Shown here one piece after another: positions 9,400 through 62,409 of a stretch of DNA of 64,000 bases (within the stretch, counting starts at the first letter, position 1; the number at the start of each line of letters is the position of its first letter). The notes under the pieces are model-generated. The model saw only the letters and a list, made by a program, of their open reading frames with translations. It had not been told where the DNA came from and did not search any database. The position numbers and the translations under genes are program-made. The stretch lies in the NCBI GenBank assembly GCA_963402885.1, contig OY727093.1:20521409-20585408 (forward strand). The letters run 5' to 3'. The stretch is from Antedon bifida. Its lineage: Eukaryota > Echinodermata > Crinoidea > Comatulida > Antedonidae.

Positions 9400-9409
9400 G
9401 TATTAGTAA

Positions 9410-11003: not shown

Positions 11004-11139
11004 TTCAATTTATATATTTTCTGTCTGAACTACTTCTTATTTCTTCATTATTAGCCTAGGAAATCTAAGGAGAGATTTTTCTTTAAGTGGTGACATATGA
11101 TAAGGAGATCAAAATTTGAGCATCACACCTCTATCACTC

Positions 11140-15737: not shown

Positions 15738-15852
15738 GTATTAAATAAAATTTCTTTTTGAACAACCAAAAAATATATAAGCGAACTTACAGTACGTTTC
15801 GAAACCTATCAGGTTTCATTCTCAACTGGCGTTTCATCGTCTAGCATTAATT
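15738..15852. repeat. Left inverted repeat of the Penelope element
   Basis: Pairs with 18024-18138. It includes a small self-complementary hairpin (GAAACC/GGTTTC). The end of the RT gene overlaps this repeat. The opposite strand of the hairpin region reads CCTGATAG...CGAAACGTAC, which may be a decayed hammerhead core. Confidence 0.9.
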
Positions 15853-17951
15853 CCATGACAACGATGAGTTGGTATAGCGCCACCAATAGGTCCAAAAGGA
15901 CGTGCCCCCTTCTCCTTCTTCAATAGTTGATCATAAATGTGTGATAATTCGTGGGCTCCTTCATCTCTGTTCATGATTTTTCCATGTTTTCTGATGTTGA
16001 TCGACTCTTTTATTTGCCTTTTTTGAGTGTTGCATTCTTTCTCAAGGATAGCAGCGTTCCAATCAATGAGGTGATTGTGTTGTAGTGCATGATCTGTTAT
16101 TGCAGATTTATGTATGATTGAAGATGTAGACGATCTTTGAGCCCTAGTTAAAATCCCTTCCGTGTTGTTTTCTGTGTCTGTGCGATGTTCTTTTATGCGT
16201 GTTTTTAAAGCCCTCCCTGTTTCCCCTATGTAAGCTTGTGGACAGTTCAAACATTGTAGTTTGTAGATGCAACCGCATACTTGGTCTTTTTCGATGCGGT
16301 CTTTCGGATGAACGAGGTTTTGCCTGATCTTATTAGATGGGATGAAAAAGGTGTCAATTTGATGTTGGTTGAATACTCTTTTTATGCGTTCAGACAGACC
16401 TTTTGTGTATGGGATCCCGATGTTGCAACGTGATTTTTCTTTAGTAGATGTTGTCCCTTTGCTGCGATTTTGATCAAGCTGTCGTTGCTGTTTTTGGAGT
16501 CGTTGTTTTTCTACCTTCTTGAATGTCCAATCTGGGTAGTCGCATTTCTTCAAAGCCTGTCTGATGTGGTCCATTTCCTGTTTCTGTCCTTCAGGTGTTG
16601 AAACTATGTTTTCACATCTATCCACAAGCGTATTAATGACACTGAGTTTGTGTTGTAAAGGGTGATTTGACTTGAAATTTAAATACTGATCTGTGTGTGT
16701 CGGTTTTCTGTAGACTGAAGTAGTTAATGATCCGTTGCTTTGTAGTGTTATGAGAATGTCCAAAAAAGGAATGGTGTTGTTGGACATGCATTCGGTGGTG
16801 AATTTGATATTTTGGGTAGTGTCAATGTTGTTTAAGTGAGTATTAAGATCCGTAGCTGCATGCAAGGGAATGCTGGCAAGAATGTCATCGACATAGCGAT
16901 ACCATATGGTGGGTTTAAATTCCATTGGTGCTGTAGCAATCGCCTCCGTCTCTAACCATTCCATAAACAAATTTGCTATGATGGGGCTGATGGGACTACC
17001 CATCGCTAAACCTTCCTTTTGTTTGTATATTTTGCCTTGGAAACTGAAATAAGTGGCGTTGAGAGTCAGTGATAGCAACTCAATGATGTCAACCACTTCT
17101 AATTTTGTTCTTGTGTAGAGTTGCTTGTCCTGTTTTAGGCAATGTTCTACGGTCTTTATTGCTTCTTTTACTGGTGTTTTTGTGTACAAAGAAACAACAT
17201 CAAATGATATTAGTGTTTCATTAGGAGGGATGTTTAAGTTCCTCATTTCCTTCGCTAGCTGTTTGGAGTTCTCAACATGATGTTTTGAGTTGCCTACTAG
17301 GGGTTTGAGGATTTCCTTAATGTAGCGTGACACTCCGTAGAAAATGGTGTTAATACTGTCAACAATTGGTCGGATGGGCCAATTTGGTTTGTGTACTTTG
17401 GGTAAGCAATAGAGGCGTGGTACATTTTCAGCTGTGGGAAACATGTCATTCTTTTCTTTTCTTGATATTTTCTTATCATTGAAATGCCTGTTCAAGATGT
17501 TGACAAGTTTTCTTTTGTGGTTTGCCGTTGGATCTTTCTTCAGCTGTTCATAGGTGTTACTATCGCTAAGCATGTCATTAACTTTGCTTACATAATCAAT
17601 TGTGTCTAGAATAACAGTAGCTCGACCTTTGTCGGCTGGCAAGATTGTTATGTCGCTGTTTTTCTTTAAATTGAGTAAAGCTTTTCTTTCTTCGGATGAT
17701 ATGTTGGAAGGTGGAATTTTAGCAGTGTTGATGGTGTTAAAGATTTTGGCACGAATGATGTCTTTTTCAGCGTACGGTACGTTGATCGATTTACATGCTA
17801 GCTCTGTCGCTACAACAATGTCCTCAATAGGTGCTGTGCGTGGGGACACTGCATAGTTTAGGCCTAGCTCTAATACCTTAATTTCTGTACTGCTAAGGTC
17901 TTTTTTGGATAGATTAATCACCCACCTGTTTTTCAACTGCCTCCCGCTCAA
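15834..17951 (-). CDS. Penelope reverse transcriptase / GIY-YIG endonuclease, 705 aa
   Basis: Copies element RNA into DNA at a target cut by its own nuclease. N-terminal ITILPADKGRATVILD (about residue 100) is the Penelope DKG motif. RT blocks follow: RLYCLPKVHKP and IRPIVDS (about 180-200), motif A SFDVVSLYTKTPV (about 250), motif B AMGSPISPIIANLF (about 320), catalytic YVDD (about 350), and IPFLDILIT. The C-terminal GIY-YIG nuclease (CIYKLQCLNC and AYIGETGRALKTRIKEH, about 570-600) carries the usual cysteines. No stop breaks it. The start at 17951 is a TTG chosen only by the ORF limit used here. The same frame stays open leftwards of it (EWWIKKGKHLQNELYQE) into the inverted repeat without an ATG, so a spliced or non-ATG start is likely. 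Confidence 0.9.
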   Translation of the reverse strand: MSGRQLKNRWVINLSKKDLSSTEIKVLELGLNYAVSPRTAPIEDIVVATELACKSINVPYAEKDIIRAKIFNTINTAKIPPSNISSEERKALLNLKKNSDITILPADKGRATVILDTIDYVSKVNDMLSDSNTYEQLKKDPTANHKRKLVNILNRHFNDKKISRKEKNDMFPTAENVPRLYCLPKVHKPNWPIRPIVDSINTIFYGVSRYIKEILKPLVGNSKHHVENSKQLAKEMRNLNIPPNETLISFDVVSLYTKTPVKEAIKTVEHCLKQDKQLYTRTKLEVVDIIELLSLTLNATYFSFQGKIYKQKEGLAMGSPISPIIANLFMEWLETEAIATAPMEFKPTIWYRYVDDILASIPLHAATDLNTHLNNIDTTQNIKFTTECMSNNTIPFLDILITLQSNGSLTTSVYRKPTHTDQYLNFKSNHPLQHKLSVINTLVDRCENIVSTPEGQKQEMDHIRQALKKCDYPDWTFKKVEKQRLQKQQRQLDQNRSKGTTSTKEKSRCNIGIPYTKGLSERIKRVFNQHQIDTFFIPSNKIRQNLVHPKDRIEKDQVCGCIYKLQCLNCPQAYIGETGRALKTRIKEHRTDTENNTEGILTRAQRSSTSSIIHKSAITDHALQHNHLIDWNAAILEKECNTQKRQIKESINIRKHGKIMNRDEGAHELSHIYDQLLKKEKGARPFGPIGGAIPTHRCHGINARR

Positions 17952-29752: not shown

Positions 29753-29756
29753 TTGA

Positions 29757-31051
29757 CATTAATATTTTTTAAACATGCACGTATGTTAACATACAATCGG
29801 AAAATGTTGATGTATGCCATCTTATTATACGCTTATAGTGCTGAGTTGTTCCTATTATACGCCATATACATTATGTACAGTATATACTGTATATATATAC
29901 AGTGTAGCATTGGTGAAATTACGGACTCATTTTCTAAGTTCTAATTTTTTGGTATGATGAAATTATAAAAATAAACTTGTGGATAACAATATCAAAGGAT
30001 AATGAATTGAGCAATAAAATATAACAATTGGAAGAAAATTTGGCACGTAGAAGGGCATTGCTTAATTTTTATATGAATTCATATTTACATTTCATCAGCC
30101 TTCATAATAAATTATAATCATCAAGGTCACCTTTAATTCTGAAGAGCAAAAATATGGTGTAGGTGAAATTACACGACCTACGTTATTCAAGTTTTTACGC
30201 GTGATGACGTCATCAAAATGAAAATGTTGACAACTCATGAGAAAGATAATTAATTGAGCAATCATATATACTAAATTTGAGCGAAAATCGGGCACAAAAT
30301 AACCGAGATGCGCTCTGTTGAATGTGATAATCTATGACAACAAAGAAAAAAACCTAATTTTTAAATTTAAGTGGCCATTTGGTGATATCACAACATTTTG
30401 TACGTGAAATGTGTACATGAATTCATATCTATAACTCAATGGCTTCCCGAATAAGTTAAAAAAATTAGGGGTCATCTTGCATTCTGAAGAGTTATTTTCA
30501 TTTTAAAAAAGACTTACTTTTGACCATTTTCAGAACTTTTGTGAAATTAATGTGCACATTTTGTCATTTTTAACATGCTCGTATAGCGTTATTTTAAGAC
30601 GGAATAGACTCAAAATCGGTGAATGTACTAAGGATTGTGAGTAGAATGTGATTTATACATCAAATTTTATTTTTTACGCATTTTAAGAATTGCGCGCGCA
30701 AAAACGCATTTTTGCGGAGTAATCTCTTGAAACAAGCAAATGGTTTAATTCATGCTTTAAATTGACCTTGAAACCTTGAAATGCGCAAGATTTTATTTGC
30801 TAATATTTTTACCTTTGACCTGAAGCTTATGTGTAGTGAATTTTATTCACATGTGATAATGAATTATGGACATATGATTGATAATGTGATTTCACAAAAT
30901 GGCGTATAAATGACGTCACGGATGAGTGATCACGCTGAAAACCTAACTATGACTAATCTAAATTATTTTTAATATATTTTGAAATTTTGGTGATTATTGA
31001 CATTTAACTTTTTGAGATAATTGCTGACACACAAAATCTGTACAGAAAGAA
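29757..31051 (-). mobile_element. Helitron2-like element, TAGGTGATC type, both ends lost
   Basis: Matches 9410-11003 in inverse orientation from AAACATGCACGT at 29770: TACAGTATATACTGTA near 29877, TGACGTCA at 30205, a further TGACGTCA near 30913, and CTTTTTGAGATAATTG near 31010. The 3' hairpin is missing at the left, and the 5' end is replaced at 31052 by the next Helitron. Confidence 0.75.
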
Positions 31052-33009
31052 CTAGAATTTAATTCGTCACTTTGACGAATTATAGGTGATCATTTTTATC
31101 ATTTTACCGAAATTAATTTTTGTTTAACATGCACGCACGTTAACATACGATCGGAAAATGTTGATGTATGCCATCCTATTATACGTTTATAGTGCTAGGT
31201 TGTGCCTATTATATGCCATATACAATATGCACAGTATATACTGTATATCTATATACAGTGTAGCATAGGTGAAATTACAGGCCACACATCATGTTCTAAT
31301 TTTTTGGTATGATGGAGTTATCAAAATAAACTCGAAATTGACAATTTCGAAAGATAATGAATTGAGCAAATAAATATAAGAAATGGAAGAGAATTTGGCA
31401 CGTAGAAGCGCAATGCGCGCTCTTTTAAATTTGTATAACTTTGACGAAAAAGATGAAAAAACTACTTTTTAACTTCATCTGGCCATATCTTAACGTCACA
31501 ACATCCGATAGGCTTGATTTTTATATGAATTCATATCTACATTTCATCAGCTTTCATAATAAATTATAATAATCAAGGTAACGTTCAATTCTGAAGAGCT
31601 GTAAGATATTTAAATTTACGGCAAAGTTGAAATTACACGACCTACGTTATTCAAGGTTTTACGCGTGATGACGTCATCAAAATGAAAATACTGGCAAGTC
31701 CTGAGAAAGCCAATTAATTGAGAAATCACATACTAAAATTTTAGCGAAAATCGGGCACAAAATAACAGAGATACGTTCTATTGAATGTGATAATTATATG
31801 ACGAAAGAGAAAAAAACTTTTTAATTCAAGTGGCCATTTGATGACGTCACAACATTTTGTACGTCAAATATGTACATGAATTCATATCTACAACTCAATG
31901 GCTTCCCGAATAAGTTAAAAAAATTGGGGGTCATCTTGCATTCTGAAGAGTTATTTTCATTTTAAAAAAGACCTATTTTTCACCATTTTCAGAACTTTTG
32001 TGAAATTAATGTGCGCAGTTTGTCATTTTTAACGTGCTCGTATAGCGTTATTTTAAGTCGGAATGGTCTCAAAATCGGTGAATGTACCAAGGATTGTGAT
32101 TAGAATGTGATTTATACATCAAATTTTATTTTTTTACGCTTTTTAAAATTCGCGTGCGCAAAAATGTGTTTTTGCGCAGTAATTTTTTGAAACATGCAAA
32201 TGGCCTAATTCATGCTCTAAATTGATCAAAACTTAATTTTGAGCTTTTTAAATTTTTAATGCGCGATTTCACGCGCATGACCTTGAAACACGCAAGTTTT
32301 TTTTTGTCTTACGTGGGTTCATCCCACTTTTATTTCCATAAATACATACTGTATATATATACATTAATACATTAACATGTATATTTCGTCTATTAACATT
32401 TGTTTTAATCATGCATATTTGCTTTCTTTTTTAGTTCATCTTTTTCATTATTATCTCTTAAAACTTAACTTTTTTTGTTTACAGTTAAACTAATGCTATT
32501 CTATTTACATATATTTTTATAGCATAAACATACTTATATTAAATATATTTTTTTTAAATTTTTAAAAATCTTTCATCATCATCATACACATATTTTTCTG
32601 CTTGTATTATTTTTACTTTTATGTTAACTCATAACATAATTTATCAACATGTCTTATTTTAAAAACTTTCTGTATTATCTATATCTAAATCTATCTCTAA
32701 TCTATTCTCCTATTACATGCTTTTTTTTTTTCTAGTTATCCATTAACATACATATTTTGTATTTGTTAACATCCATTTTTTTTGCATTTACATATATTTT
32801 ATAGCATAAACATATTTTCACTACATTACATTTCGTATTGTTTTCCCTTTCATGTTAACGCATAACATAATTTATCAACATTTCCATACATACTAATATT
32901 TTGTTTTCTTTTCTTTTTATTTGTTTGTTTTTTTTTTGGTTTTTTTTTTTTTAACACATGTTATTCTATTATATATATTCCTTATAATTTAACACATATC
33001 TACTAATTA

Positions 33010-33150
33010 CTAGTATTAATTTCTTTATATATATATATACACATACATACACACACATATACATGCATATATATACATATATATATACACATACACATGT
33101 ACACATACACGCATACATATACACATTCATATATATATACATATATATAT
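33010..33150. repeat. TA/CA microsatellite in LINE 3' UTR
   Basis: Alternating TATATA and CACATA runs, about 140 bp, inside the 3' UTR of the Tx1-like LINE. Confidence 0.85.
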
Positions 33151-33442
33151 TTTCTCATACACTTTATAGTTGTTTGTACCCCTATAGTTATTATACAATC
33201 CCTTTTGTTCTCATTTAATTTACATAGCCTTGATATCCTTTGATAACTTTGATATACTCATACTTACATAACACATAAATAATATTGTATCTTGTAGCTA
33301 CTGATTGATATCACAACTTTGACTCTTAAACATATATATATAAATATATATACACACCCGTATATGCATTATGCCTACATCTTTTATGTCATTCTCCTAG
33401 CACACCTTATTTTCAATCATTTCATAACTTTACATTTGATTG

Positions 33443-36400
33443 TCATCTATTTAGACAATATTCTAGACGGTTATGATCTAATTTTTCCCATTTCTTTCTA
33501 GCCGCAAGATTATCAATTGCGTATTCAATTTTTCTTAACATTTTAATTTCTTTAGTGAATAACAACCATGTATTTACAATTTTATTTTCTGTTCGAAAAA
33601 GAACACTTGCCTTGTAAATACAAAAAGTAAAAATTGATAACAACTCATTAACAATATTATTGGCTAAGCCAAGAATAATATATTCAAAACAAGAATAATC
33701 AACAAACGCCTGATTTTCTTTGTTACAAGAGTTTAGCATGTTGTTAAAATTATACCAAAAGGGCGCATTTTTTCCACAGTATGTGCCTTTCGTCTTCTAT
33801 TTCTATGTTACATCTGTCACACATATCTGAATCATATATCTTCCATAACTTAAGTTTCTTTTTACAACATAAAATTCTATGCAACAATTTAAAATTAAAT
33901 TGTGCAATTTTACTTATGTGTTTCATACAGTATACTTTTCTATGCCATATTGTATTCCAATCTAAAGAATCTAAATTAAGATCTCTTTCCCATTTCGTTT
34001 GAACATTTGGTTCACTGGATTTATTCACCAAAAATCCCTTGTAAAATGTTTTAACTGTAGCGTTTTTGTCATATAAATCATATTTTTTCACTTCTACTAC
34101 CTGAATATTATCTTTAACATTAAAAAGTTTGTTTTTCCAATGTCTGGGAATTGCCTGTTTTAAACAAAAATATTCAACAATCCAGTTTTTTGATGTCTTA
34201 AGTTTATCAACAATTTCTTGTGACGACTTAAAAGAGTTATCATTAACAATATCACTAATTTGTGTTATTCCAGAATCAATCCAATTTTGGTTATATAAAG
34301 ATTTATTGTTTAGTACAATATATTTGTTGCCCCACAAAATCTGTTTATTAATTTCATCTATACCTTGTGGTTCAGTGTAAAAATAATTATTATACTGTGT
34401 ACAAATTGATAAAATTTCTTTATAGAAAGTTGGAATGTCAGATAAAAACTTGTTTTTTTTATCTATTTGCGACATTTCCGATAAGTATTTAACAGGATGT
34501 AAAAAATATAGCGGAATACACTTCCACTATCCTGGATCTGGGCTAAGTAACCGTTTTATCCAGTTTAATTTTAATGATTTTACAACTAAATTAAAATCAT
34601 TTAGTTTTATACCTCCATGTTTAATTTCTTGAAACATAATATCTCTTTTTATTTTTTCTCCTTTTCCATTCCAAATGAACTTAAAAATAATACTGTTAAC
34701 CTCATTTACAATATTTGTGGGTACCTCTATTATACTAGCATTATATATTATTTTGGAGAGTGCTAGTGTTTTTATCACCATTACTTTACCAAAAATACTT
34801 AAATTTCTTTTTTCCCAGGTTTTTAATACATTTTTAAAATTTTCAATCTTTTCAACCCAGTTTTTTTTGTGGCATTTTGTTTTATCATAACCAACAAAAA
34901 CACCTAAGAATTTGACAGGTTCATCAACCCATTGTATTGAAAAAGGTTTATGAACGTTGTTTTTTGAAGAACCTATCCACATACCTTTTGTTTTCATTTT
35001 GTTAAGTGACATTCCTGCAACCTTACAAAACAAGTCTACTGTATTTATACAAGCTTCAATACTCATTTCATCCCTAACAATAATTATAGTATCGTCTGCT
35101 AACTGAGCAATTTTGACTTCTTGTTCATCATTATACCCTTTTGAAGGCAGTATAATACCTTTACAATGAATATTGCTTCTTATATTGATAGCCATTGGCT
35201 CTACAGCTATTAAAAAAAAGTAATGCCGAAAGAGGGCATCCTTGTCTAATACCATTACTCACCTTAAAACTTTCTGATACCCATCCATTGTTTGTAGTAA
35301 CTGACTCAGTATTGAAATAAAATGTCTTGACCCATTGTATTAGGTCCTGACCAAAACCAAATCTTTTCAATGATTGGATTAAAAATACTCTATCTATTTT
35401 GTCAAATGCTTTAGCAAAATCTAGAAATATTATAGCACCTTCTTTATTAAAATTATTGGTGTATTCTAATACATCTTTAACAAGCCTTATATTTTCACCA
35501 GCAAACCTTCCTTTAATATAACCTTTTTGATCAGTATCTATTATGTCACCAATTACTAATTTTAGTCTATTTGCAATAACATTTGCCATAATCTTGTAAT
35601 CTATATTAAGAAGAGTTATTGGTCTCCAATTTTTTAAGTCTTCTCTTTTACCATTTTTGTACAGTAAGGAGACTACTCCTCTCCTTTGAGAATTTGACAA
35701 TTGTCCATTATTAAAAGAAAAATTAAAAGCATCACAAACTAAAGAGTCAAAAGAATTCCAAAATTTTTGGTAAAATTCTACTGACAAGCCATCACTGCCT
35801 GGTGCCTTATTAAGTCTCATTTTATATAAGGCATTTTTAAATTCTTCTATTTTTATAGTCCCTTCACATTTCTTTTTTTGTTCTTCAGATAATACTTTGA
35901 CATTAGTTTTATCAAGATAATTTAGAATATCTGAAGTTAAAGTTTCAGATGATTCATTTGAATTTTTCTTTTTGTATAAATTTTTTAAATAATGTACTTG
36001 TTCACGAAGAATTTCATCAGTATTGGTAGTGTATTTACCATTACTTTTTAGGACTGCTGTGATACATTTTCTTTTAGCTTTACTTTTTTCTAGACCTATA
36101 ACAAATTTTGTATTTTTTTCACCCTTTTCAAACCATTCTATTCTTGACCTTATTTGAGCACCCTTTGCTTCTAATGTATATATGCCTTCCAGGTCTTTTG
36201 CTTTATTAATTAAAATTCTCTCTGTTTTCTCATCATAATCAGTTTCTAGTTTGTTCGTCAGGTCTGAAATTTCTTTTAACAATTTTTCTTTATCACTATT
36301 TCTTGAATGCTTTGTTTTTGCTCCATATCTGATTGAGAACTCTTTTATTTTTACTTTCAAGTGCTCCCAAAGTAATTCTGGATTTAAATCATAATAATCA

Positions 36401-37206
36401 TTTAATAAGCTATTATTAAGTTTCCATATTCCAGGACCCTTTCTTTCTTGATTTGTCTGAATTTTGAGTGATATTGCTAGATGGTCAGAACAAATAGCAG
36501 GTCTGATATCAGTACTAATTATTTCACCATTTTTGCACATAGAGTTTGAAATGCACCAAAAATCTAGCCTTCTATAAACATTTTTCCGTCTCCATGTATA
36601 TTGAGATTTACCAATATTATTATTTCTCCATATATCTATGAGGTTGTGTTTATACATACAATTTTTTAATACAATTGGTGAATTGTCAAAATTGTTTGCA
36701 CTGTTTTTTTGGTCAATACTACGTTCTAATATGCTGTTCATATCTCCTCCAATTACTATATACTGATTTTTTATGTTACATAAAGAATTAATTTTCTTCT
36801 CAAGCTTTGTAAAAAATAAAGCTCTTTCTTTATAATTGTTTGGTGCATAAACATTAATTAAATTTAAAACGGTACTTTTGTGTTTAAAGCTTACAATAAG
36901 TATTCTGCCTTCTGCGTCAACATATTTTATGTTCAAATCTTCTAAATCTAAGCCTGGCTTAAATAGAATGGATACACCCCTGCTATTTGTTTTTCCAAAA
37001 CTATTGCAAGATTCTCCTTTCCATATCTTATTATAAACATTAATATTTGCTTTGTCAAAATGGGTTTCTTGTAACAAAATTATATCAGTTTTTTGCTCTT
37101 CAAACCACTTATATACTTTTCTTTTTCTTTTCTTAAAACTATCTCTTAAACCATTAACATTCAAAGAGATTAGTTGTAGAGGCCTTTTATGATGTTTTCC
37201 ATCCAT
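33443..37206 (-). pseudogene. LINE ORF2: endonuclease-reverse transcriptase, few breaks
   Basis: Starts at ATG 37206. The N-terminal AP-endonuclease shows SLNVNGLRDSFKKRK, LLQETHFD, VIGGDMN and CSDHLAISL. RT follows: APGSDGLSVEFYQKFW, NWRPITLLNIDYKIMANVIA, motif A IFLDFAKAFDKID, motif B GIRQGCPLSALLF, then LADD. The C-terminal region has CDRCNIEIEDERHILW. Three defects were seen: a frame change at an eight-A run (35211-35218), an in-frame TAG at 34527-34529, and a frame change at a T run near 33770. The last part (33443-33739) carries the family's C-terminus. The small number of defects suggests a fairly young insertion. Confidence 0.88.
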
Positions 37207-37327
37207 TATTATTTTTTTTTTCTTTGTTTTATAATTTTTTTTAATTTATTTTTTTTTAAATAAATAAATTGACTGTACTTTATAATACATGTAAAAAAAA
37301 AGTGTCATTATAACATAACACCGTCTT

Positions 37328-38623
37328 TTAACTTACAGAGTCTGATTTCTTCTCTTTCTTTTCTAGATTATTTTCACCACTGTTTGTATTTTTCTTTCTT
37401 TTGCTTGCAGCAAAACTTTGTCTAGCCGCTGCAGCACCTTCCGATGTATCTTGTTCGGGTACAATATTTGTGGCAAAGTCTGTAATCGGTCGCATTCCTT
37501 TCGTACTTTTCGCTGTTTTTTCTGATGTTTTGGTTTCTTGATCCTCATTTTTCTTCCCACTCTTTTTTGTTTTCTTTTTCTCTTTTTTTGATGCTTGAGT
37601 TGAATGCTGTCCTGGCTGTGTGTCGTCATCGCTGTTAATTGTTCTTACCCTTTCGATAGCTTCTCTCATTATCTGTTGCACTTTCTCATCCAGTTCCAAA
37701 GAATCTGGAGCGTTTCTTGGATTTGTAGGTTTAATTAGTAGATCTTCTAATACCTCGATTACGCTTCTCTCTTTTTCTGTAGGTCTTATTTCTTCTGCCT
37801 CTTCTGTATGAACATGGTCATTGCTTTCTACTATCTTTATCTGGACATTCTCATCTTCAGCGTTGGCATTCTCCATTTCCGTAAGTGGAATTATGTCAGA
37901 GTCGTTGGTATTTGCTTTTTCATTTAAAAACTCCTGACACTTATTTGAGACATGTCCAAGCTTGTTACATGTGTAACATCTTATTTCTTTTAACTTTGTT
38001 GGACATTCATATACTTTATGACCCGGCAAACCGCATTTAAAGCATTTCATGTCATCTTTCTGGTCCTTATGAAAGAGCCTTGCATTGAAGGAATTAACTT
38101 TAAAGAACCTTGGGAGGCTGTCTTTAAAGGGTTCAACGAACACTGCATGATCTCCATTTAGAAACCGAGATAGCTTTCCATTTATTCGGAATTTTATGTA
38201 TTGCACTTCGCTAATTCCCTTGCATCCAAATTTTTTCAGCGCGTCTGTGATCTCCTCGTCTCTTACAGACAGAGGTATGTCTTTGATCAACAAGCGGGTT
38301 TTTATGTTTTCTCTTAAAAATGGATTTCTATCATGTACATTAATGAGTTTACCTTTGATGTTCAGCCCTGATGTTATAACTTTCACTCTTTCAGCATGGT
38401 CATTAACATATATCCTCCATAAATTCCTCACCTTTTGGGCTCCGACTAGAAAGTCACAATTTATAACTTGATTCAACGCAAAGAAAATATCTTCTTCCTT
38501 TAGGTACTCATCTTCCTTAGATATAATATCTTCATCTTTTACAAAGATCGGTTTAACATTATTAATATTAGGATTAGCACCGTGTTCTGAAGTCGCCATG
38601 TCAACTTGCGTTTGACAAAACAA
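37328..38623 (-). CDS. LINE ORF1 RNA-binding protein with two CCHC knuckles, 431 aa
   Basis: Unbroken ORF upstream of ORF2 in the same element. The middle holds two zinc knuckles, CFKCGLPGHKVYEC and CYTCNKLGHVSNKC (about residues 190-230). Before them an RRM-like region has TRLLIKDIPLSVRDEEITDA. The C-terminal third is acidic then Lys-rich (KKEKKKTKKSGKK), as in nucleic-acid-binding ORF1 proteins. It probably packages LINE RNA. The gap to ORF2 is 121 bp, so ORF2 would need re-initiation or its own start. Confidence 0.88.
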   Translation of the reverse strand: MFCQTQVDMATSEHGANPNINNVKPIFVKDEDIISKEDEYLKEEDIFFALNQVINCDFLVGAQKVRNLWRIYVNDHAERVKVITSGLNIKGKLINVHDRNPFLRENIKTRLLIKDIPLSVRDEEITDALKKFGCKGISEVQYIKFRINGKLSRFLNGDHAVFVEPFKDSLPRFFKVNSFNARLFHKDQKDDMKCFKCGLPGHKVYECPTKLKEIRCYTCNKLGHVSNKCQEFLNEKANTNDSDIIPLTEMENANAEDENVQIKIVESNDHVHTEEAEEIRPTEKERSVIEVLEDLLIKPTNPRNAPDSLELDEKVQQIMREAIERVRTINSDDDTQPGQHSTQASKKEKKKTKKSGKKNEDQETKTSEKTAKSTKGMRPITDFATNIVPEQDTSEGAAAARQSFAASKRKKNTNSGENNLEKKEKKSDSVS

Positions 38624-38683
38624 TAGGCTTTACTCCTTGCTTATTGAAGTGTGACCGTTGCGTTTGACACGAAGAAAGGAAAA

Positions 38684-41480
38684 CTAGATTTGAACTCGTC
38701 ACTACGGACGAGTTAGGTTATCCGCAGCGCAAAGGCCACGTCATACGTTAGAATATTGCAAACAGAAAAACGATTATGCCATTAAAACAATTTCAGTGTG
38801 CTCTCTATTTTGTGTCACGTCTAAGTATATACAGTATACATACTGTATACATACTACATACTGTGCCGTATAGGTAAAAATAAGTGATCAAAGTTATTTA
38901 CGCTTTTGAACATGATGACGTCATCACAATTTTAAAAATGGTGAATCATGCGAATGGTAATTGATTGACCTAGACAATATAAAAAAAATGGGGAAATGGA
39001 ATACGGATAAGTGGAGATGCGCTCTATTAAATGTGATAAGCTATGACGAAAGATACAAAAATCATATATTTTATATTCAAGTGGCCATACGATGACGTCA
39101 CAATGTCTGGTTAGCCATATTGATTCATGATTTGATATCTACAACTCATCAACTTCCAGAATCTGTAATTTTAAAAAATGTCACCACGTAGTTTGAAATC
39201 TATGACATTTTAAAAAAAGGCATAATTTGACAAATTTTTGAACTTTTTCATCAAAAACGCGCGAAAAATTGTTCAATTTAACGTGCTCGTATGACGTGAT
39301 TTTAAGTCAAAATTGTTTGAAAGTTGGTAAAATTACTAGAAAAGGTTGAAAAAACAAAAATCAAGCAAAAAAAAAATGATGTTGCGCTACGTGCGCACGC
39401 GCGCATAAAAAATTGCGCACGCGTCTGAATTTTTGAAATGCTCAAAATGACATGAAACGCGTAGAAAGTTGATTAGAAATTGATTTTTCGCATTTTGAAA
39501 TTTTAAACGCGCGTGCGCGCGTAACTTTCTGTGAAACATGCCATTTTTAATCCATAGAAAGTTTGCGCATGGTATGACTTAAATTTTCACAAAGTTTCAA
39601 TACAAAATGACTTTTGGTTTTTAATCTATGATCAATCATTGAAATTCATAAAATCGCGCGTAACTTGCGCTGCGCGACTCGAAATTCATAAAACAAAGTT
39701 TCTTGCACATTTACAGCTACAGGTCAATCTTATGACAAAGTTATACAATCTAATGTTGGCCAGAATTAGAGATATGCGTGCAACAAAATTCGTGGAAAGA
39801 AAGAAGAATATAGAAAAACTAGATTTGAACTCGTCACATTGACGAGTTCGGGTTATCCGCGCAAACGCAACATGCACATACTTAACTATATGTCCCTCGA
39901 CAATTATTATGCCATCCTATGACATGAAATAAATATGTTTACAGTGCTGAATTGTACCTATTATGTAGCATACACCATATTACAGTATTTTACAGAATAA
40001 ACTGTATATGTTATATACAGTGTAGCATAGACGAAATTACGAGACCCATCTTTTAAATCTAATTTTTAACACGATGACGTCATCAAATTGACATATAAAG
40101 ATAACAATTTTAGAAGATAATTATCTAAAAATTTACATTAAAACAAATTTGAAGAATTTTGGGCACGTAAAAGTGAGATGCGCTCTCGTTTAAACGCAAT
40201 GAACTTTTACGCAAGAGATGAAAATATGACTTTTTGAATTCAACTGGCCATATGATGACGTCACAACATCTGATTGGCAAAATATTCACATCAATTCGTA
40301 TCTACAATCCAATAGCTTCCAGTAAACGTTTTAATCATGATTATCACTTTTTATTCTGACGAGCTATAACAGATTGAAATTTACTGTAAAGATGAAAATA
40401 AGTGACCCACGTTATTTACGTTTTTAGACATGATGACGTCATAAAAATTAAAATATTTTTAATTCATGCGAAAGATAGTTGATTAACGTAGACAATATTA
40501 AAATTTCGGGGGAAATGGAATACGTATAACCGAGAAGCGCTTTGTTGAATTTGATGAGCAATAACGAAAGAGTAAAAAATCCTATATTTTACATTCGTGT
40601 GGCCATACGATGACGTCATAACATCCGAGTGGTAAAGGTTCTGCATGAATTCATATCTACAACATGTCTGCTTACATATTAAATTAAAAAAATTGGGGGT
40701 CGTGGATGATCCTGAGGAGCTATAATAGAATAAAAATAGGCTTAATTTTGACAATATGTTGTCACTTTTGCAACTAAAACGCGCGCAAATGGTCTAAATC
40801 AACGTGTTCGTATGACGTCATTTTAATTTGAAATGATGTAAATCTTTTTTAAAATGACTAGGAAAGGCTGGAAAATCATAATTCAAGTGAAAAAACATGA
40901 TTTTTATGCTCCGTGCGCACCATACGCGTAAACTTTTTCGCGCGCGCGGGAATTTTTGACATGCTCAAAGTATCATGATCAGCGTAGAAAGTTGATTAGA
41001 AATTAATTTTGCGCATTTTGAAACTTTAAATGCGCGTGCGCGCGTAACTTCTTGTTAAACATGCCATTTTTAATCCATAGAAAGTTTGCCCTTGATATGA
41101 CTTAAATTTTCACCAAGTGTCAATACAAAATGACTTTTGGTTTATAATCTATGACCAAACATTGAAATTCATAAAATCGCGCGTGACTTACGCTACGCGA
41201 CTCTAACGTCATATAACGAAGTTTCCTGCACATCTACAGCTACAGATCAATCTTATGACAAAGTTATACAATCTTATGTTGACAAGGGTGAGAGATATGC
41301 GTGCAACAAAATTCCGGGAAAGAAAGAAGAACAAAGATGATGAAAAAAAAGATATTTACAATCACATGGGTTATCCTGCAACTAAGTTGCGGATAACCAA
41401 AAAAAAAAAAAAGAAAAAAAAAAAAAAAAAAAAAGATCCTGACAATAACAAGGGGTTATCCGCCAAGTGCGGATAACCAA
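38684..41480 (-). mobile_element. Helitron2-like element, GGTTATCC type, split by another copy
   Basis: The 3' end is A|CTAG (38684-38687), ATTTGAACTCGTC hairpin, GGTTATCCGC. The 5' end is GGGGTTATCCGCCAAGTGC then GGATAACCAA at 41480. The outer text stops at GAAGAATATAGAAAA (39818) and resumes after 41400 with an A-run and GATCCTGACAATAACAAGGG, as in another copy near 55980. Net length is about 1.2 kb, roughly one ~355-bp internal dimer shorter than its relatives. TGACGTCA occurs at 38917 and 39093. Confidence 0.82.
39819..41400 (-). mobile_element. Complete Helitron2-like element, GGTTATCC type (innermost of nest 1)
   Basis: 3' end CTAG (39819-39822), ATTTG, hairpin AACTCGTCA-CAT-TGACGAGTT, then GGGTTATCCGCG. 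5' end GGGTTATCC...GCGGATAACC at 41391-41398. TGACGTCA at 40075, 40256, 40434, 40611 and 40813 marks tandem units of about 177-181 bp (then 202). Length 1582 bp, non-coding. Confidence 0.85.
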
Positions 41481-42132
41481 ACAAAAAAAAAAGCTAGCCC
41501 GTTGTTAGGGTAAACAAAAACGGGTTTCTATGATCGTTTTCCACTGATCGAAAATCGGCGGTAACAGGGACAATAGATCGTATCTTGGCCTATATAAATT
41601 ATGTTGCAATATGAGGCCTAAACCATCCAAATGTGAAAAATAAAGCACAACTATCATTCACCTGTACTATTAAAAGCAATCTATGAATCACAAATGATCG
41701 TATTCCTTTTAAATTATTTACAATTTAAAGATTCTAGTTAAAGGTAGCCTAAGTGTACTTGTACTCTTAAAGCGCCCTCCGAAAGCCCAAGTTTTTATTT
41801 GCTTATATTTTTACCCTTGACCTGTAGTTTACATGTAGTGAATTTCATTGATATGTGATAATGAATTATGGAGATATGATTAATAGTGTGATTTCACAAA
41901 ATCGCGTATTATTGACGTCACGGTTGAGTGATCACACTGGAAAGCTTATTATGGTTAAGTTAAAGTATTTGAAAGACATTGTACAATTTTTGTGATCATT
42001 GCTATTCAACTTTTTGAGATAATTGTTACACAAAAAGTGTACAGAAAGAAGAATAATAACAATAACAAAAACAACAATAAAGATTTTGTACAATAACAAT
42101 AGGTGATCATTTTATTCTAAATGATCACCTAA

Positions 42133-43460
42133 CTAGACATGAAACTCGTCACAAGTGGTGCAACATGGACGTTTAACGACGTACCTTTTAACATTAAGGG
42201 GATAGGCTGAGGACAAAAGGAAGTGTTCACGTTGGCATTATGACCTTGAACTGAAGAATATGTTGTTATTGCTGAATTCTATTATTTTGATTCATGTATA
42301 GTATACACAGTATAATCTGTATCCATATCACATACAGTGTAGAATAGGTGAAATTACGGGACCCGCTATTTATTGCAATTTTTAACATGTTGACGGTTTT
42401 AAAATGAAACCCGAAGGTAGCAATTTCGGAAAGAAATTATCTCACCAACAACATATTAATGTGTAGAAGAAATTTGAATACGTGAAATATTGATGCGCGC
42501 TCTTTTAAATGTAATGAATTATGACGCAAAAGATGAAAATACAACTTTTTTTTATTTAACTGGCCATATGATGACGTCACAACATCCGATTGGCAAAATT
42601 TTTACATGATTTCGTATCTACAATCCAATAGCTTCCAGAAAACGTTTTAATCGTGATTATCACATTTTATTCTTACGAGCTATAACAGATTAAAATTTAC
42701 TGTAAAGATGAAATTAATGCAACACGTAATTTAAATTTTTAGGCATGATGACGTCATAAAAATTGAAATATTTTTAACTCATGCGAAAGATAGTTGATTG
42801 ACCTAGACAATATCAAAATCGGGGTGAAAATGGAAACCGGATAAGTGGAGATGCACTCTATTAAATGTGATGAGCTATGACGAAAGATACAAAAATCCTA
42901 AATTTTATATTCGCATGGCCATACGATGACGTTACAATGTCCGGTTAGCCATATTAATACATGATCCGATATCTACAACTCATCAACTTCCAGAATATGT
43001 CATCCACAAAAAGTTGACCGTGCAGTTTAGAAATTACGACTGTTTAAAAAAAGGCATAATTTTGATGAATTTTTGAACTTTTTCATCAAAAACGCGCGCA
43101 AATTGTCCAATTCGACGTGCTCGTATGACATAACTTTAAGTCGAAATTGTTTAAAGTTGGTAAAATTACTAGAAAAGGCTGGAGAAACATAAATCACACA
43201 AAAAATATGTTTTTAATGCTACGTGCACACCGCACACGAAAGAATTTGCGCACGCGTGGGAATTTTTTAGATGCTTAAAACGACATGAAGCGCGTAGAAA
43301 GTTGATTAGAAATTAATTTTGCGCATTTTGAAATTTTAAATGCGCGTGTATGCGTAACTTTGTGTAAAACACGCAATTTTTTTTCTACAGAAAGTTAGCG
43401 CATGATATAAATTAAACTTTTGCAAAGTTTCAATTTGAAATGTTATTTGGTTTTAATAAA
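42133..43460 (-). mobile_element. Helitron2-like element, CTAGACATG type, 5' end missing
   Basis: CTAG (42133-42136) follows the 5' end of the previous Helitron after only AA, then ACATGAAACTCGTC, a palindromic TACAGT block near 42350, and TGACGTCA units (42572, 42748). It fades near 43460 within the family's 5' third. Part of the hairpin is damaged (CACAAGTGGTG). Confidence 0.75.
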
Positions 43461-44249: not shown

Positions 44250-46130
44250 TCAAAAATAAAAGGAGGAAATTGAGGGGCCATTAACAACTGATGAAATATT
44301 ACAAGTTCTAAAAAATATGAAAAACAATAAAAGTCCCGGAAAAGATGGTTTCTCCGCCGAATTCTTTAAATTTTTCTGGATTGATATTAGTGGCTACTTA
44401 GTTAGAATGCTCGATTGGGTGTATAATAACGGAAAACTATCTCAATCTCAACAAATTGGAATCATAACGCTCATACCTAAACCGAATAAACCAAGGGACC
44501 TTCTAAAAAATTGGCAACCTATATCACTATTAAGCATCACCTATAAGTTAGTGTCTGGGTGTATAGCTAATCGAATAAAGAATGTATTAACTCATATTAT
44601 AAGTAGAGAGCAAAATGGTTTTATGCCAGATAGATTTATTGCCGAAAATATTAGACTAATGAATGACATTATATGTATTGGTGAACAGTTAAAGATTCCT
44701 GGTATGCTATTATTAATTGACTTTGAAAAAGCCTTCGACTCTGTTTCACATATATTCATTGATAGAGCCATGGAAATGTTTAACTTTGGTGAGTCTATTA
44801 GAAGGTGGATTACAATCTTTTATTCAGAAATGTATTCCTCAGTTAATGCTAACTGTGCTATGTCGAATCGTTTTAAAATTAAAAGAGGCTGTAGAAAAGG
44901 GGACCCTTTTCTCCATATATTTTTCTAATTTGTGCAGAAATATTGAATAATTTAATAAAGCAAAACAACCTAATTAAGGGAGTTAAAATTAGAGATGAGA
45001 AATACACAATATCTCAATATGCAGACGACACTACCATTATACTTGATGGGTCTGAAGCATAAAATTCTCTTCTGGAGAGAGGTAATAGATGCATGGAGTA
45101 ATTTTATTTCTATTCATTATCCAAAATCTGTTGATGAGCTATTACAAATGCAAGTTTGGAATAATGAAGTAATAAGAATAGGCAACAAATTTATAAATTT
45201 GGAAAAAAGCAGGTATTTTGTTTGTTAATGATTTAATGAATGAATTTAATAAACAGCAATGAGCAATTTATGAATAAAAAAGAAATATAAAGTTAATAGG
45301 ATTAAAAGGGCTTCTTATGGAAAAATGTAAAAATTTAATGACATGTGAAATTAAAAAAACAGTTTTGCCAGATATTCCATTTCATATAAAAGTACTCTTT
45401 CAACAAAGAAAGGGTTGTCGCATTTTTTATGATGTTCTAAACAACTCATTGTTTAAATCATGGAAAGCACAAAAGAAATGGGCAGAGAATACGACCAATG
45501 GAAAACAATCTAACCATAGCTCCACATACGTGTACAATGAATATTGTTTTAATATATTTTCAATATAAAATTTTAAATACAATAATTGCAACAAATGAAC
45601 AATTATTTAAAATGAATATAAAAGAAACTTCAATGTGCTCATTTGGAGATGGTCAAATTGAAACCATTAAGCATTTGTTCTGTAATTGTCCAATTGTAAA
45701 AAAAAAATGGAACCTCCTCCAGGAAAACATTTTTGAAAAAACTGCAAATTATTTTTAGTAAAGAGAGCATAATTTTCGTATACCAAGAATTTTAATTTAA
45801 AAGCCATTAATGCAATTATTCTAATAGTAAAATCATGTATTTATAAATGTAAACTAGTTAAATGTAAGCCAACTATAAAAATTTATTTATCATCAACATT
45901 TTAAGGACAGTATTTTTAATACAAAATGGATACAATTCGAAACATTTATAAATCAAATATGAAATTGTTAGAGGTTAGAATAATTTTTATGAACCTTTAT
46001 TTAATTTAGGGCCTATAAGGAGATGGATATCTATGTTGTTTTTATTAGCTTTTATTTTAAATTTAATTTGATTATGTTTTTCCTTTGTAATGTATAATAT
46101 GATGAAATAAAAAAAAATGAAAAAAAAAAA
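44250..46130 (+). mobile_element. 5'-truncated Tx1/L1-group LINE
   Basis: Begins just before the RT domain, with no ORF1 or endonuclease, and ends in a 3' UTR with an A-rich tail (about 46105-46130), 37 bp before the next SETDB1 exon. Protein words are clearly related to, but different from, the 32302-41787 LINE, so this is a separate family of the same group. It lies in sense with SETDB1. Confidence 0.82.
44317..45758 (+). pseudogene. LINE RT and C-terminus, broken
   Basis: 44317-44928 reads NNKSPGKDGFSAEFFKFFW, NWQPISLLSITYKLVSGCIA, motif A LLIDFEKAFDSVS, motif B-like KRGCRKGDPF. A frame change near 44905 passes to SPYIFLICAEILNNLIKQ and the catalytic YADDTTIIL (about 45020). A deletion of the thumb follows: after ILDGSEA the text jumps to FWREVIDAWSNFISIHYP. 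The last part (45498-45758) has CSFGDGQIETIKHLFCNC, the LINE C-terminal zinc-like block. Confidence 0.82.
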
Positions 46131-58844: not shown

Positions 58845-59544
58845 GTGTGTGTTTAGACAATATATCACTACAAGCATGTGTATGCGAATTGTGTGTAATG
58901 GTTATGTAACCAACCTTTCAACTAACAATAGATTCTGTTGACTAACAATAGAACAGCAACGCCAAAAACAAACGGGTGAATTTGTAAAGAAATAGGTTTT
59001 TTTAAAACTACTCATATCAAAAAACCTGTAAATTAATCAATTTATGTTTTACAATTACAGATCACAAGTTATAACTCTTGCCAAAAATGTCTATCTTTTA
59101 ACACTAGCAGGTCTGAAAAGTATACTAAAAAGTGGTCCAGAATTGGGGCCATTTAATGGAATGGAATGGTCCTTGACCACATATCTATCTGTATATTCAT
59201 CTTGGTAAAGATCTTGTAATTACTTTTTGAGTAATCCTGCTAACAAACAAACAGACAAACTAGCCTTCGCGCATAGCGCGATACTTGGCCAAATCAAATT
59301 TGGCCTCCTGACCTTGACCCGATTTTCACCAAAAGTGTGTGTCTTAATGCTGTGTGATTTAGGCTAATTTCACTACAATCATGTGTATGCGAGTTTGGTG
59401 TAAAGGTTATGTAACCAGCCTTTCAACTAACAATAGCTTCAGTCGACTAACAATAGAACAGCAACACGAAAAACACACGGGTTAATTTGAAAAGAAATAG
59501 GTTTTTTAAACTACTCGCATCAAAAACCTGTATATTAAATCTAA
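58845..59544. repeat. Tandem ~510-bp repeat, second unit interrupted
   Basis: Unit 1 (58850-59180) and unit 2 (59365-59544, continuing at 62219-62410) share ATGTGTATGCGA, GGTTATGTAACCA, CTTTCAACTAACAATAG, AGAACAGCAACAC-like words, AAGAAATAGGTTTTTT, TAACTCTTGCC and AACACTAGCAGGTCTGAAAA in order. Unit 1 provides the empty site for the Helitron at 59545-62218. Confidence 0.7.
59260..59345 (-). mobile_element. Helitron-like 3' end, CGCGC hairpin
   Basis: A|CTAG (59260-59263), CC, then hairpin TTCGCGC-AT-AGCGCGA: on the minus strand a hairpin, three bases, CTAG, T. The inner part (CTTGACCCGATTTTCACC) is not matched elsewhere in the window. It lies between the two units of the tandem repeat. Confidence 0.5.
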
Positions 59545-60308
59545 CTAGATTTGAACTCGTCACTTTGACTAGTTCGGGTTATCCGCGCAAAAGCAACATG
59601 CACATACGTTTAAAATATATGAACGCCGACAATTATTATGCCATCCTATGACATGAATTAAATATGTTTACAGTGCTGAATTGTACCTATTTTGTAGCAT
59701 ACAGCATATTACAGTATTTACAGAATACTCTGTATTATGTTATATACAGTGTAGCATAGACGAAATTACGAGACCCATCTTTTAAATCCAATTATCAACA
59801 TGATGACGTCATCAAATTGACATATAAAGATAACTATTTAGAAGATAATTATCTAAATAATTACATTATTACAAATTTGAAGAATTTTGGGCACGTAAAA
59901 GTGAGATGCGCTCTCGTTTAAACGCAATGAACTTTTACGCAAGAGATGAAAATATGACTTTTTGAATTCAACTGGCCATATGATGACGTCACAACATCTG
60001 ATTGGCAAAATATTCACATAAATTCGTATCTACAATCCAATAGCTTTCAGAAAACGTTTTAATCATGATTATCACTTTTTATTCTAATGAGCTATAACAG
60101 ATTGAAATTTACTGTAAAGATGAAAATAGGGATCCCACGTTATTTACATTTTTATACATGATGACGTCATAAAAATTAAAATATTTTTAACTCATGCGAA
60201 AGATAGTTGATTGACCTAGAGAGTATTAAAATATCTGTGGAAATGGAATACGTATAAGCGAGATGCGCTCTATTTAATGTGATGAGCAATAACGAAAGAG
60301 TAAAAAAA

Positions 60309-61390
60309 GTTATCTTGGCGGTAGGATGCAGAGAGTAGTAATTGATGGTGCCACATCCAATTCTCTCCCAGTCATCTCAGGCGTGCCTCAAGGTTCCATT
60401 CTTGCCCCCCTGGTGTTCAATATATTTGTTAATGAAATACCAAATCTCTTTCAAAATTCCAACTGTCTTATGTTCGCTGACGACCTCAAGATTTACAAAA
60501 TTATTACCACCACTGAGGACTCCGTTGCACTTCAGGCAGATCTGGAAAGACTCGGTACGTGGGTTTCCGACTGGAAAATGTCACTGAAGTCCGAGAAATG
60601 CAAAGTCCTGTCTTGCTCTCTTAAGAAAAAACCTATTATTTTCGCTTACTCTGTTCAAGAAGAAGTCCTTGAAAGTGTAAACTCTTACCGGGACCTCGGC
60701 ATTTTCATCGACCGTAAACTGACATTTATTTCACACGTTGATCATGTTGTCAGAAAGGCCAATAGGCTGCTTGGGCTGATGTGGCGCAATTGCAAACATT
60801 TTTCTCCATACACCAAACGTGCGCTTTATCTTTCCCTCGTCCAACCATCTTTCAATTTCTGTTCAATTATTTACAACTCACTCTCTGCTTCTCAAGCCTC
60901 CAGAATTGATCGGACCCATAACAAGTTCTTGCGCTTTGTCGGCCCAGCAGCCAACCTGCCTCCTATTGTTTCCCCGACATCTAGGAGAGCAAGACAGGAC
61001 TTGCACTTCCTGTATCAATGTCTTACTTCTAAGTTTGATTGTAATATTGTTTCGTTGTTTTATTTTAATGTTCCTGTTCGTAATCTTCGTAGTAAACCCT
61101 TTCTTCATGTTAAATTTTCTCGTGTTAATGTTTGTAAAAATGGTATTTTCTGTAGACTCTCGTCTTTGTACAATTCATGTCTTTTAAAAAATAATTCTTT
61201 AGATATTTTTAACTGTAATTTTTCTCAATTTAAATGTATTATTAATGAAATTATTTAAATAATCTTTTTTTCATTTTGTATATATTTATATTGGCTCATA
61301 TTTTATAGTTTAGTTATTTTATTTTCAACCTGTTATTGGTGTTTTACACTGTTGGTTTGAAATAAAGAATAAATGGAATAAATGGATATA
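60309..61390 (+). mobile_element. 5'-truncated LINE (Jockey/CR1 group) inside a Helitron
   Basis: The Helitron text breaks after CGAAAGAGTAAAAA and resumes at TAAAAATTCTATATTTTAC, where intact copies read GAGTAAAAAATCCTATATTTTAC. The LINE ends with a TAAATGGA-like tail (61365-61388). It begins in the RT between motifs A and B. Orientation is opposite to its host element. Confidence 0.85.
60326..61258 (+). CDS. LINE RT C-terminal half, 310 aa, unbroken
   Basis: Reads QRVVIDGATSNSLP, motif B SGVPQGSILAPLVFNIFVNE, catalytic FADDLKIYK (about residue 52), SWVSDWKMS-like thumb (GTWVSDWKMSLKSEKCKVLS), YRDLGIFIDRKLTFISHVDH, and the C-terminal RRARQDLHFLYQCL. Motif A and everything upstream are absent through 5' truncation, so no active enzyme is made. 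The frame is intact for the part present, which points to a young insertion. Confidence 0.85.
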   Translation: MQRVVIDGATSNSLPVISGVPQGSILAPLVFNIFVNEIPNLFQNSNCLMFADDLKIYKIITTTEDSVALQADLERLGTWVSDWKMSLKSEKCKVLSCSLKKKPIIFAYSVQEEVLESVNSYRDLGIFIDRKLTFISHVDHVVRKANRLLGLMWRNCKHFSPYTKRALYLSLVQPSFNFCSIIYNSLSASQASRIDRTHNKFLRFVGPAANLPPIVSPTSRRARQDLHFLYQCLTSKFDCNIVSLFYFNVPVRNLRSKPFLHVKFSRVNVCKNGIFCRLSSLYNSCLLKNNSLDIFNCNFSQFKCIINEII

Positions 61391-62409
61391 AAAATTCTAT
61401 ATTTTACATTTGTGTGGCCATGATGACGTCATAACATCCGAGGGGTAAAGATTCTGCATGAATTCATATCTACAACATATCTGCTTACATATTAAATTAA
61501 AAAAATTGGGGGTCATAGATGATCCTGAGAAGCTATAATAGATTAAAAATAGGCATAATTTTGACAATATATTGTCACTTTTGCAACTAAAACGCGCGCA
61601 AATGGTCTAAATCAACGTGTTCGTATGACATCATTTTAATTTGAAATGATGTCAATCTTTTTTAAAATAACTAGGAAAGACTGTAAAATCATAATTCAAG
61701 AGAAAAACACATGATTTTCATGCTCCGTGCGCACCTTACGCGTAATTTTTTTTGTGCGCGTGGGAATTTTTGACATGCTCAAAATGGCATGATCAGCGTA
61801 GAAATTTGATTAGAAATTAATTTTGCGTATTTTGAAATTTTAAATACGCGTGCGCGCGTAACTTCTTTTGAAACATGCCATTTTTAATCCATAGAAAGTT
61901 TGCCCATGATATGACTTAAATTTTCACCAAGTGTCAATACAAAATAACTTTTGGTTTATAATCTATGATCAATCATTGAAATTCATATAATCGCGCATAA
62001 CTTGCGCTGTGCGACTCAAACGTCATATAACGAAGTTTCTTGCACATCTACAGCTACAGGTCAATCTTTTGACAAAGTTATAAAATCTTATGTTCACAAG
62101 TAATAGGGGATATGCTGGTCACAAAAATCCGGGAAAGAAAGAAGAATAACAAAGAAGATGAAAAAGATATTTACAATCACAAGGGTTATCCGCAACTTTA
62201 CAAGTTACGGATAACCAATTAGGTTTTAAAATTTACAAATCACAAATAATAACTCTTGCCTCTTGTACAAAAATGAAGTTTTTTGGACAAGTAGTTCTTG
62301 AGAAAATGCAATTTTAGTTGGCTTGTGAAAATTCTGTCCTATTCTCTTAACACTAGCAGGTCTGAAAAAATTTCTAAAAAGTGGTCCAGAATTGGGACCA
62401 TGGTCCGGA

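Follow-up and report, generated by a model that had tools for sequence, protein, structure and literature searches.

We analyzed a 64,000-bp window of the Antedon bifida genome (C1:20521409-20585408), in which a preliminary description had proposed a four-level nest of transposable elements: an outer Helitron, a long interspersed nuclear element (LINE) assigned to the Tx1 type, and two further Helitrons, one inside the other. The 315.6-Mb genome was searched, and each boundary of the nest was compared with other copies of the same elements. The four-level nest is real: the outer Helitron (hereafter O) is split by an L1-type LINE, the LINE is split in its 5′ untranslated region (UTR) by a middle Helitron (A), and A is split by an inner Helitron (B). 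The nest is tidy rather than rare, since its innermost step lies at a spot that these elements hit repeatedly, and part of the insertion order claimed for it is probable rather than proven.

The 3′ half of O (31052..32301, minus strand; CTAG 3′ end at 31052, 98.1% identical to copy L002) and its 5′ part (41797..42131, minus strand, with the palindrome AGGTGATCATTT..AAATGATCACCT) rejoin into one 1,585-bp element, as had been proposed. The rejoined element aligned at 90.2% identity to the reverse complement of 9401-11010 (140 mismatches and 16 gap positions) and at 98.2% over 1,510 bp (22 mismatches) to L002 on contig C7, the latter alignment being limited to this length because another Helitron occupies the far end of L002. 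The LINE is flanked on both sides by CAAGTTTTT, at 32293..32301 next to its 3′ end and at 41788..41796 next to its 5′ end; elsewhere in the window the motif occurs once on the plus strand (30188) and three times on the minus strand. All seven other O copies examined (L002-L008) lack the LINE and have a single target at the point where ~9.5 kb of additional sequence lies in the window, with CAAGTTTTT itself in five copies and one base changed in two (L005 and L007).

Excluding the Helitrons at 38684-41480, the LINE occupies 32302..41787 on the minus strand, with its 3′ end at 32302 and its 5′ end at 41787. Open reading frame (ORF) 1 lies at 37328..38623 (minus strand; 431 amino acids as listed from a TTG, with a CCHC zinc knuckle), and ORF2, containing the endonuclease and reverse transcriptase, lies at 33750..37206 (minus strand) but is spread over three frames (37206-35161, 35255-34527, and 34475-33750) and so broken. 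With an endonuclease (PF03372) before a reverse transcriptase (PF00078), an upstream ORF1, and a target duplication, the element is a LINE of the APE-endonuclease, L1-like type; the nearest copy examined, L014, was 97.3% identical over 1,281 bp. Its 3′ end at 32302 has a hairpin (GTGGG..CCCAC) and an A-tail in common with L010, L015, and L017. Three related subfamilies have a similar 3′ end, and their 17 listed copies show 13 distinct 3′ flanks; related LINEs therefore choose no fixed target. A reading of the LINE as a target-specific Tx1 element was rejected, as the 3′ flanks differ among related copies.

The middle Helitron, A, is of the GGTTATCC type. Its body lies at 38684..39818 (minus strand; CTAG 3′ end at 38684), and the rest of its poly(T) tract and its 5′ terminal palindrome lie beyond B, at 41401..41480 (minus strand). 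That A resumes after B with its A-run and GATCCTGACAATAACAAGGGGTTATCC, as the preliminary description had stated, was confirmed by the matching, uninterrupted copies L063, L064, and L074. The 20 best places for the A body, window included, were 93-100% identical; the window's A has two private differences among 17 aligned copies and lies 0.18% from L062 and L065, which carry other neighbors than the window's A. Only one other place (L040) matched the LINE 5′ UTR, and there 17 bp, and no Helitron, separate the UTR match from ORF1; being diverged and shorter, this UTR backs the continuity of the LINE but cannot place the insertion with single-base precision. The order of O before the LINE, given by the target-site duplication and the seven empty copies, and of the LINE before A, given by the one sibling LINE without a Helitron there, is thus supported. 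A doubled 5′ terminal palindrome (GATCCTGACAATAACAAGGGGTTATCC twice, ~50-60 bp apart) was seen in L063 and L084, resembling the multiple 5′ termini reported in Fusarium, and this 5′ end had 789 matches in the genome with up to 3 mismatches.

The inner Helitron, B, is complete (39819..41400, minus strand), running from a CTAG 3′ end at 39819 to a TGGTTATCC 5′ end at ~41399, and its best other full copies are ~98% identical. A and B are 78.5% alike over 959 bp. With B inserted, the A-run is split into 5 + 13 A (14 behind the palindrome if the one counted to B is included), compared with 17 in most intact copies.

Canonical Helitron1 elements have 5′ TC and 3′ CTRR and insert between A and T. All three Helitrons here end 3′ in CTAG, as canonical Helitrons do, but their 5′ end is (T)TGG or TAGG and their target is T|T-like. 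A and B carry (T)TGGTTATCCGC at the 5′ end and the inverted repeat GGTTATCCGC ~33-43 nt inside the CTAG; O has the inverted repeats TAGGTGATCATTT and AGGTGATCATTTT, the latter ~32-45 nt inside the CTAG. A palindrome identified by eye, unfolded, starts ~9 nt from the 3′ end (AACTCGTC..GACGAGTT in A, alike in B, and AATTCGTC..GACGAATT in O). The base before CTAG is A (T on the element strand) in all A and O loci showing the CTAG end, the targets are T-rich, and no longer target-site duplication was seen by eye in these loci. Helentrons and their non-autonomous forms (HINEs) are described as carrying repeats located 2-4 nt inside the 5′ end and 38-60 bp inside the 3′ end, and as inserting into T-rich targets with no duplication (PMC4067079); the anatomy of A, B, and O fits that of non-autonomous Helentrons. 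With this layout the elements run from right to left in this part of the window, with their true 5′ ends at the right, and the A-run is a T-run near those 5′ ends. Matches to the Rep domain (PF14214, Helitron_like_N) numbered 39 in the genome. Of these, 21 lie in open frames of 2,000-3,182 amino acids, so that intact genes for rolling-circle transposases are probably still present. A search for the termini of A, B, and O at 20 Rep loci (L041-L060, ~1.5 kb either side of the domain) found none of these termini, giving three 20-42-base matches only.

The tract of A looks like a recurrent landing site. Among 19 other A loci, six are uninterrupted, with the poly(A) tract and palindrome following (L063, L064, L071, L072, L074, and L077). 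In the remaining 13, the CTAG end of another Helitron breaks into the same A/T tract. Nine of these 13 breaks fall after 4 or 5 A following ATAG, at most one base from the break in the window (after 5 A); L068 duplicates L067 (99.6% over 4,139 bp), which leaves eight separate loci. Scanning the genome for the A|B junction returned 160 places (≤2 mismatches), 13 of them exact, including the window, and none with a reversed control. Tracts with ~15 or more A at the junction point were found at 402 places (≤2 mismatches), some of which, for example L065, are interrupted further along. A 1,001-bp query across the junction gave 46 matches, comprising the window, 40 other places spanning the junction in alignments that allow gaps and are not all base-exact, and 5 non-spanning fragments. 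Of 10 interrupted loci traced through B to its other end, three showed an A-type tail and then other sequence (L069, L073, and L076), six had further Helitron units after B (L062, L066, L067, L068, L075, and L080), and one (L079) ended in a further A-type body and its tail; an A-like tail after B was also present in L084, L085, and L087.

The recurrence extends beyond A. A, B, and O all carry such a T-rich tract beside a shared purine stretch (GAAAGAAGAA on the forward strand of the window), and in all three families further Helitrons break the element just beyond this stretch. Breaks in B occur at AAAGATGAA|CTAG (L066, L071, and L086), and breaks in O at GAAGAATAA|CTAG, in two junctions (one in L002 and L008, the other in L004); in other O copies (L003, L006, and L008) the next Helitron begins at the very terminus instead.

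The two halves of the A+B composites have partly separate histories. Counting substitutions only, divergence in A is 0.2% between the window (L061) and L062, 0.2% between L067 and L069, and 1.5% between L079 and L080; in B the same pairs reach 5.6%, 5.8%, and 9.4%, respectively. Within the first 145 sites of B, five differ between L061 and L062 and seven between L079 and L080; B thus differs from its very start in these pairs, a pattern that one crossover within B would not produce. The analysis shows the structure of the nest, the recurrence of the break, and that the A and B halves are partly decoupled. The junction of B-type with A-type copies probably arose more than once at one position, although some A+B composites may have moved whole. 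Simple co-descent of all A+B composites as the whole story was ruled out, the halves having different nearest relatives.

Several points weigh against the reading, set out below, of the locus as a stack of successive insertions. The other four of the 13 breaks lie after 1, 10, 13, and ~33 bases of the tract. Of 100 listed junction places with 5 A, 48 share one variant, AAGAATAATACAGAAAAACTAG, which suggests that composites can move whole; since these 48 may be one amplified composite, the 160 places are not a count of independent events. L067 and L069 differ at 2 of 145 sites in the first 150 columns of B, as expected from a crossover a little way into B, and B copies look like mosaics, so that conversion or recombination could decouple A from B. 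Distances in A and distances in B show a weak correlation (Mantel r 0.47, p 0.026; r 0.30, p 0.098 over the first 400 columns). B also lies further from its nearest relative (~0.7%, from bit score) than A does from its own (0.18%), though B should be younger; both values come from small counts and are upper bounds. The Helitron arrays were read part-way. At the outer edge of the nest, the interrupted end of another Helitron (U, see below) adjoins O in a like fashion, at TGTACAGAAAGAA|CTAG, and its missing tail, looked for beyond O, was not found; the pattern expected of a nest fails there, and a fifth level is at most a candidate.

On balance, we consider it likely that the locus is a true insertion stack produced by two mechanisms, with its last step probably made in place. 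O, a putative non-autonomous element of the Helentron/HINE type, would have been the resident, and the L1-like LINE would have entered it at CAAGTTTTT/AT, leaving the 9-bp duplication. Entry would have been by target-primed reverse transcription, a mechanism proposed because it is known for L1-type LINEs; the insertion and duplication themselves are shown by the seven empty copies. A would then have inserted into the A/T-rich 5′ UTR of the LINE, where its boundaries are seen and one sibling LINE is without it, and B would have landed in the poly(T) tract of A, ~80 bp from the 5′ end of A and beside a TTCTTCTTTC-like motif. We infer that this last step probably took place here, after the LINE had arrived, a donor origin being possible.

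The preliminary description had counted at least two Helitron insertions after the LINE. One is secure, and the arrival of B as a second is compatible with the data and favored: no donor matching the window in both its A and B halves was found among the candidates scored (the best 10 of 3,714 and 40 of 4,789, so that a donor could be missed), and for this reason we regard two insertions as likely. The closest composites elsewhere, among those scored, are 97-98% identical to that of the window. Over its first 1,032 bp, B is nearest to a copy on C12, at ~7 mismatches (~0.7%, estimated from the bit-score difference at 4.5 bits per mismatch), and none of the composites among the matches listed has that copy as its B half. 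Private changes (the two in A, among 17 aligned copies, and these ~7 mismatches) did not date B against A.

Because the A|B junction recurs across the genome, the composite could instead have arrived whole, and the claim that B came last is favored only, in contrast to the order of O, LINE, and A. In that case B would have entered A at a donor site and the composite (5′ tail, B, A body) would have moved as one, reading through the 3′ terminator of B, with only one Helitron insertion after the LINE. Read-through at the 3′ end is documented for Helraiser (PMC4778049), six other places align collinearly with the full 2,797-bp composite (five over 1-2797 and one over 2-2796; one is L073), L069 and L076 have the same arrangement, and the variant common to 48 of the 100 listed junctions would fit such movement. 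Yet the best of these matches reaches only 97% (L073), none among the candidates scored is close in both halves, and the A sisters L062 and L065 have different partners, which leaves this alternative rather unlikely in our view.

Far less credible is a tandem array formed by rolling-circle read-through, in which A and B would be head-to-tail neighbors with neither inside the other. Tandem Helitrons elsewhere have been ascribed to bypassed termination (PMC4067079), and the genome has long arrays of same-strand units, as at C8:24966525-24974892, but A and B are only 78.5% alike over 959 bp, neither end of B is missing, and an A-type tail lies beyond B both in the window and in all three followed loci that have no further unit after B. 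The same tail speaks against a young, 5′-shortened A body having attached to the 3′ end of an older resident B, so that A would lie beside B; here too, none of the 20 A loci has a body cut at this point running straight into unique DNA. The closest A bodies do differ by only 0.2-0.5% while their B partners differ by 2-7.5%, as this scenario would have it, and we nevertheless judge it the most improbable of all. Long same-strand A-type arrays were observed at C8:24966525-24974892 and C8:18281679-18290437, with some units abutting and others separated by a tail-sized gap.

Returning to insertion of B into the tract of A, the recurrence in one orientation probably arises because the transposases choose T-rich targets, of which the elements have one near their 5′ end. 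Helitron2 and Helentron elements are described as preferring T-rich targets (PMC4067079, PMC5148889), and bat Helraiser as preferring AT-rich surroundings (PMC4778049). It seems that the elements provide a landing site for others like them, for what we infer to be this reason of transposase preference. More tentatively, with slightly less than an even chance in our estimation, the T-tract and the TTCTTCTTTC-like motif would form a landing pad of the elements' own, at which several Helitron families insert repeatedly, in the same orientation and often at the same base, and head-to-tail arrays would represent targeted self-nesting and not rolling-circle read-through. If so, arrays would grow from a fixed point inside the resident, the unit next to the body being the newest, and tandem Helitron arrays could form by a second route, open to testing, besides termination bypass. 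Nested insertions serve as clocks without dates, and a recurrent insertion site limits such use: with it, a family nest looks unique yet occurs at many loci.

Related Helitrons adjoin O at both sides. Helitron U (29755..31051, minus strand) is an O relative without the 5′ terminal part, with BLAST matches of 83-88% to 31109-32225 and 41782-42050; Helitron V, partial (42133..43457, minus strand), starts with CTAG at 42133, adjoins the 5′ terminus of O, and has BLAST matches over 42283-43457. Beyond V, a 203-amino-acid reverse-transcriptase-like fragment (44317-44928, plus strand) appears by eye to be a piece of another L1-type LINE. The Helitron at 59543-62218, offered earlier (as 59545-62218) as a comparison copy, serves less well, being itself interrupted at ~60308-61389 by DNA with a 310-amino-acid reverse-transcriptase-like ORF (60326-61258, plus strand; named by eye). 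A 705-amino-acid open frame at 15834-17951 (minus strand) looks by eye like a reverse transcriptase with a C-terminal GIY-YIG-like stretch, and may resemble Penelope-like elements.

L1-type and Tx1-like retrotransposons, which lack long terminal repeats, combine an APE endonuclease and reverse transcriptase with a CCHC ORF1 and a TTTTT/A-type insertion site. The LINE of the window is alike in all of these and in its 9-bp duplication; it differs in that its relatives have no specific target, "Tx1" being the name given in the preliminary description. With HINE and DINE-1 elements, as described in PMC4067079, the three Helitrons share palindromic subterminal inverted repeats near the 5′ end and ~40 nt inside the 3′ end, a palindrome that lies 8-35 nt from the latter, T-rich targets, and the lack of a target duplication, whereas their 3′ end is CTAG, as in the proto-Helentron of that paper, and no autonomous partner could be linked to them at the 20 Rep loci examined. 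A fixed break point inside the resident was not met in the portions of the literature on self-insertion, nests, and tandem arrays consulted, which is no proof that none is in print. The nested maize Helitrons with multiple termini (PMC3288121) are alike in placing Helitron within Helitron, and composites have been proposed to arise from such nests; the difference is that no fixed break point is described in the sections of that source seen. FoHeli, a Helitron2 of Fusarium oxysporum (PMC5148889), likewise shows self-insertion, composite elements, and duplicated 5′ termini, but insertion into another copy appears, in the sections of that source seen, as single examples, whereas here the break is found again at one place in many copies.

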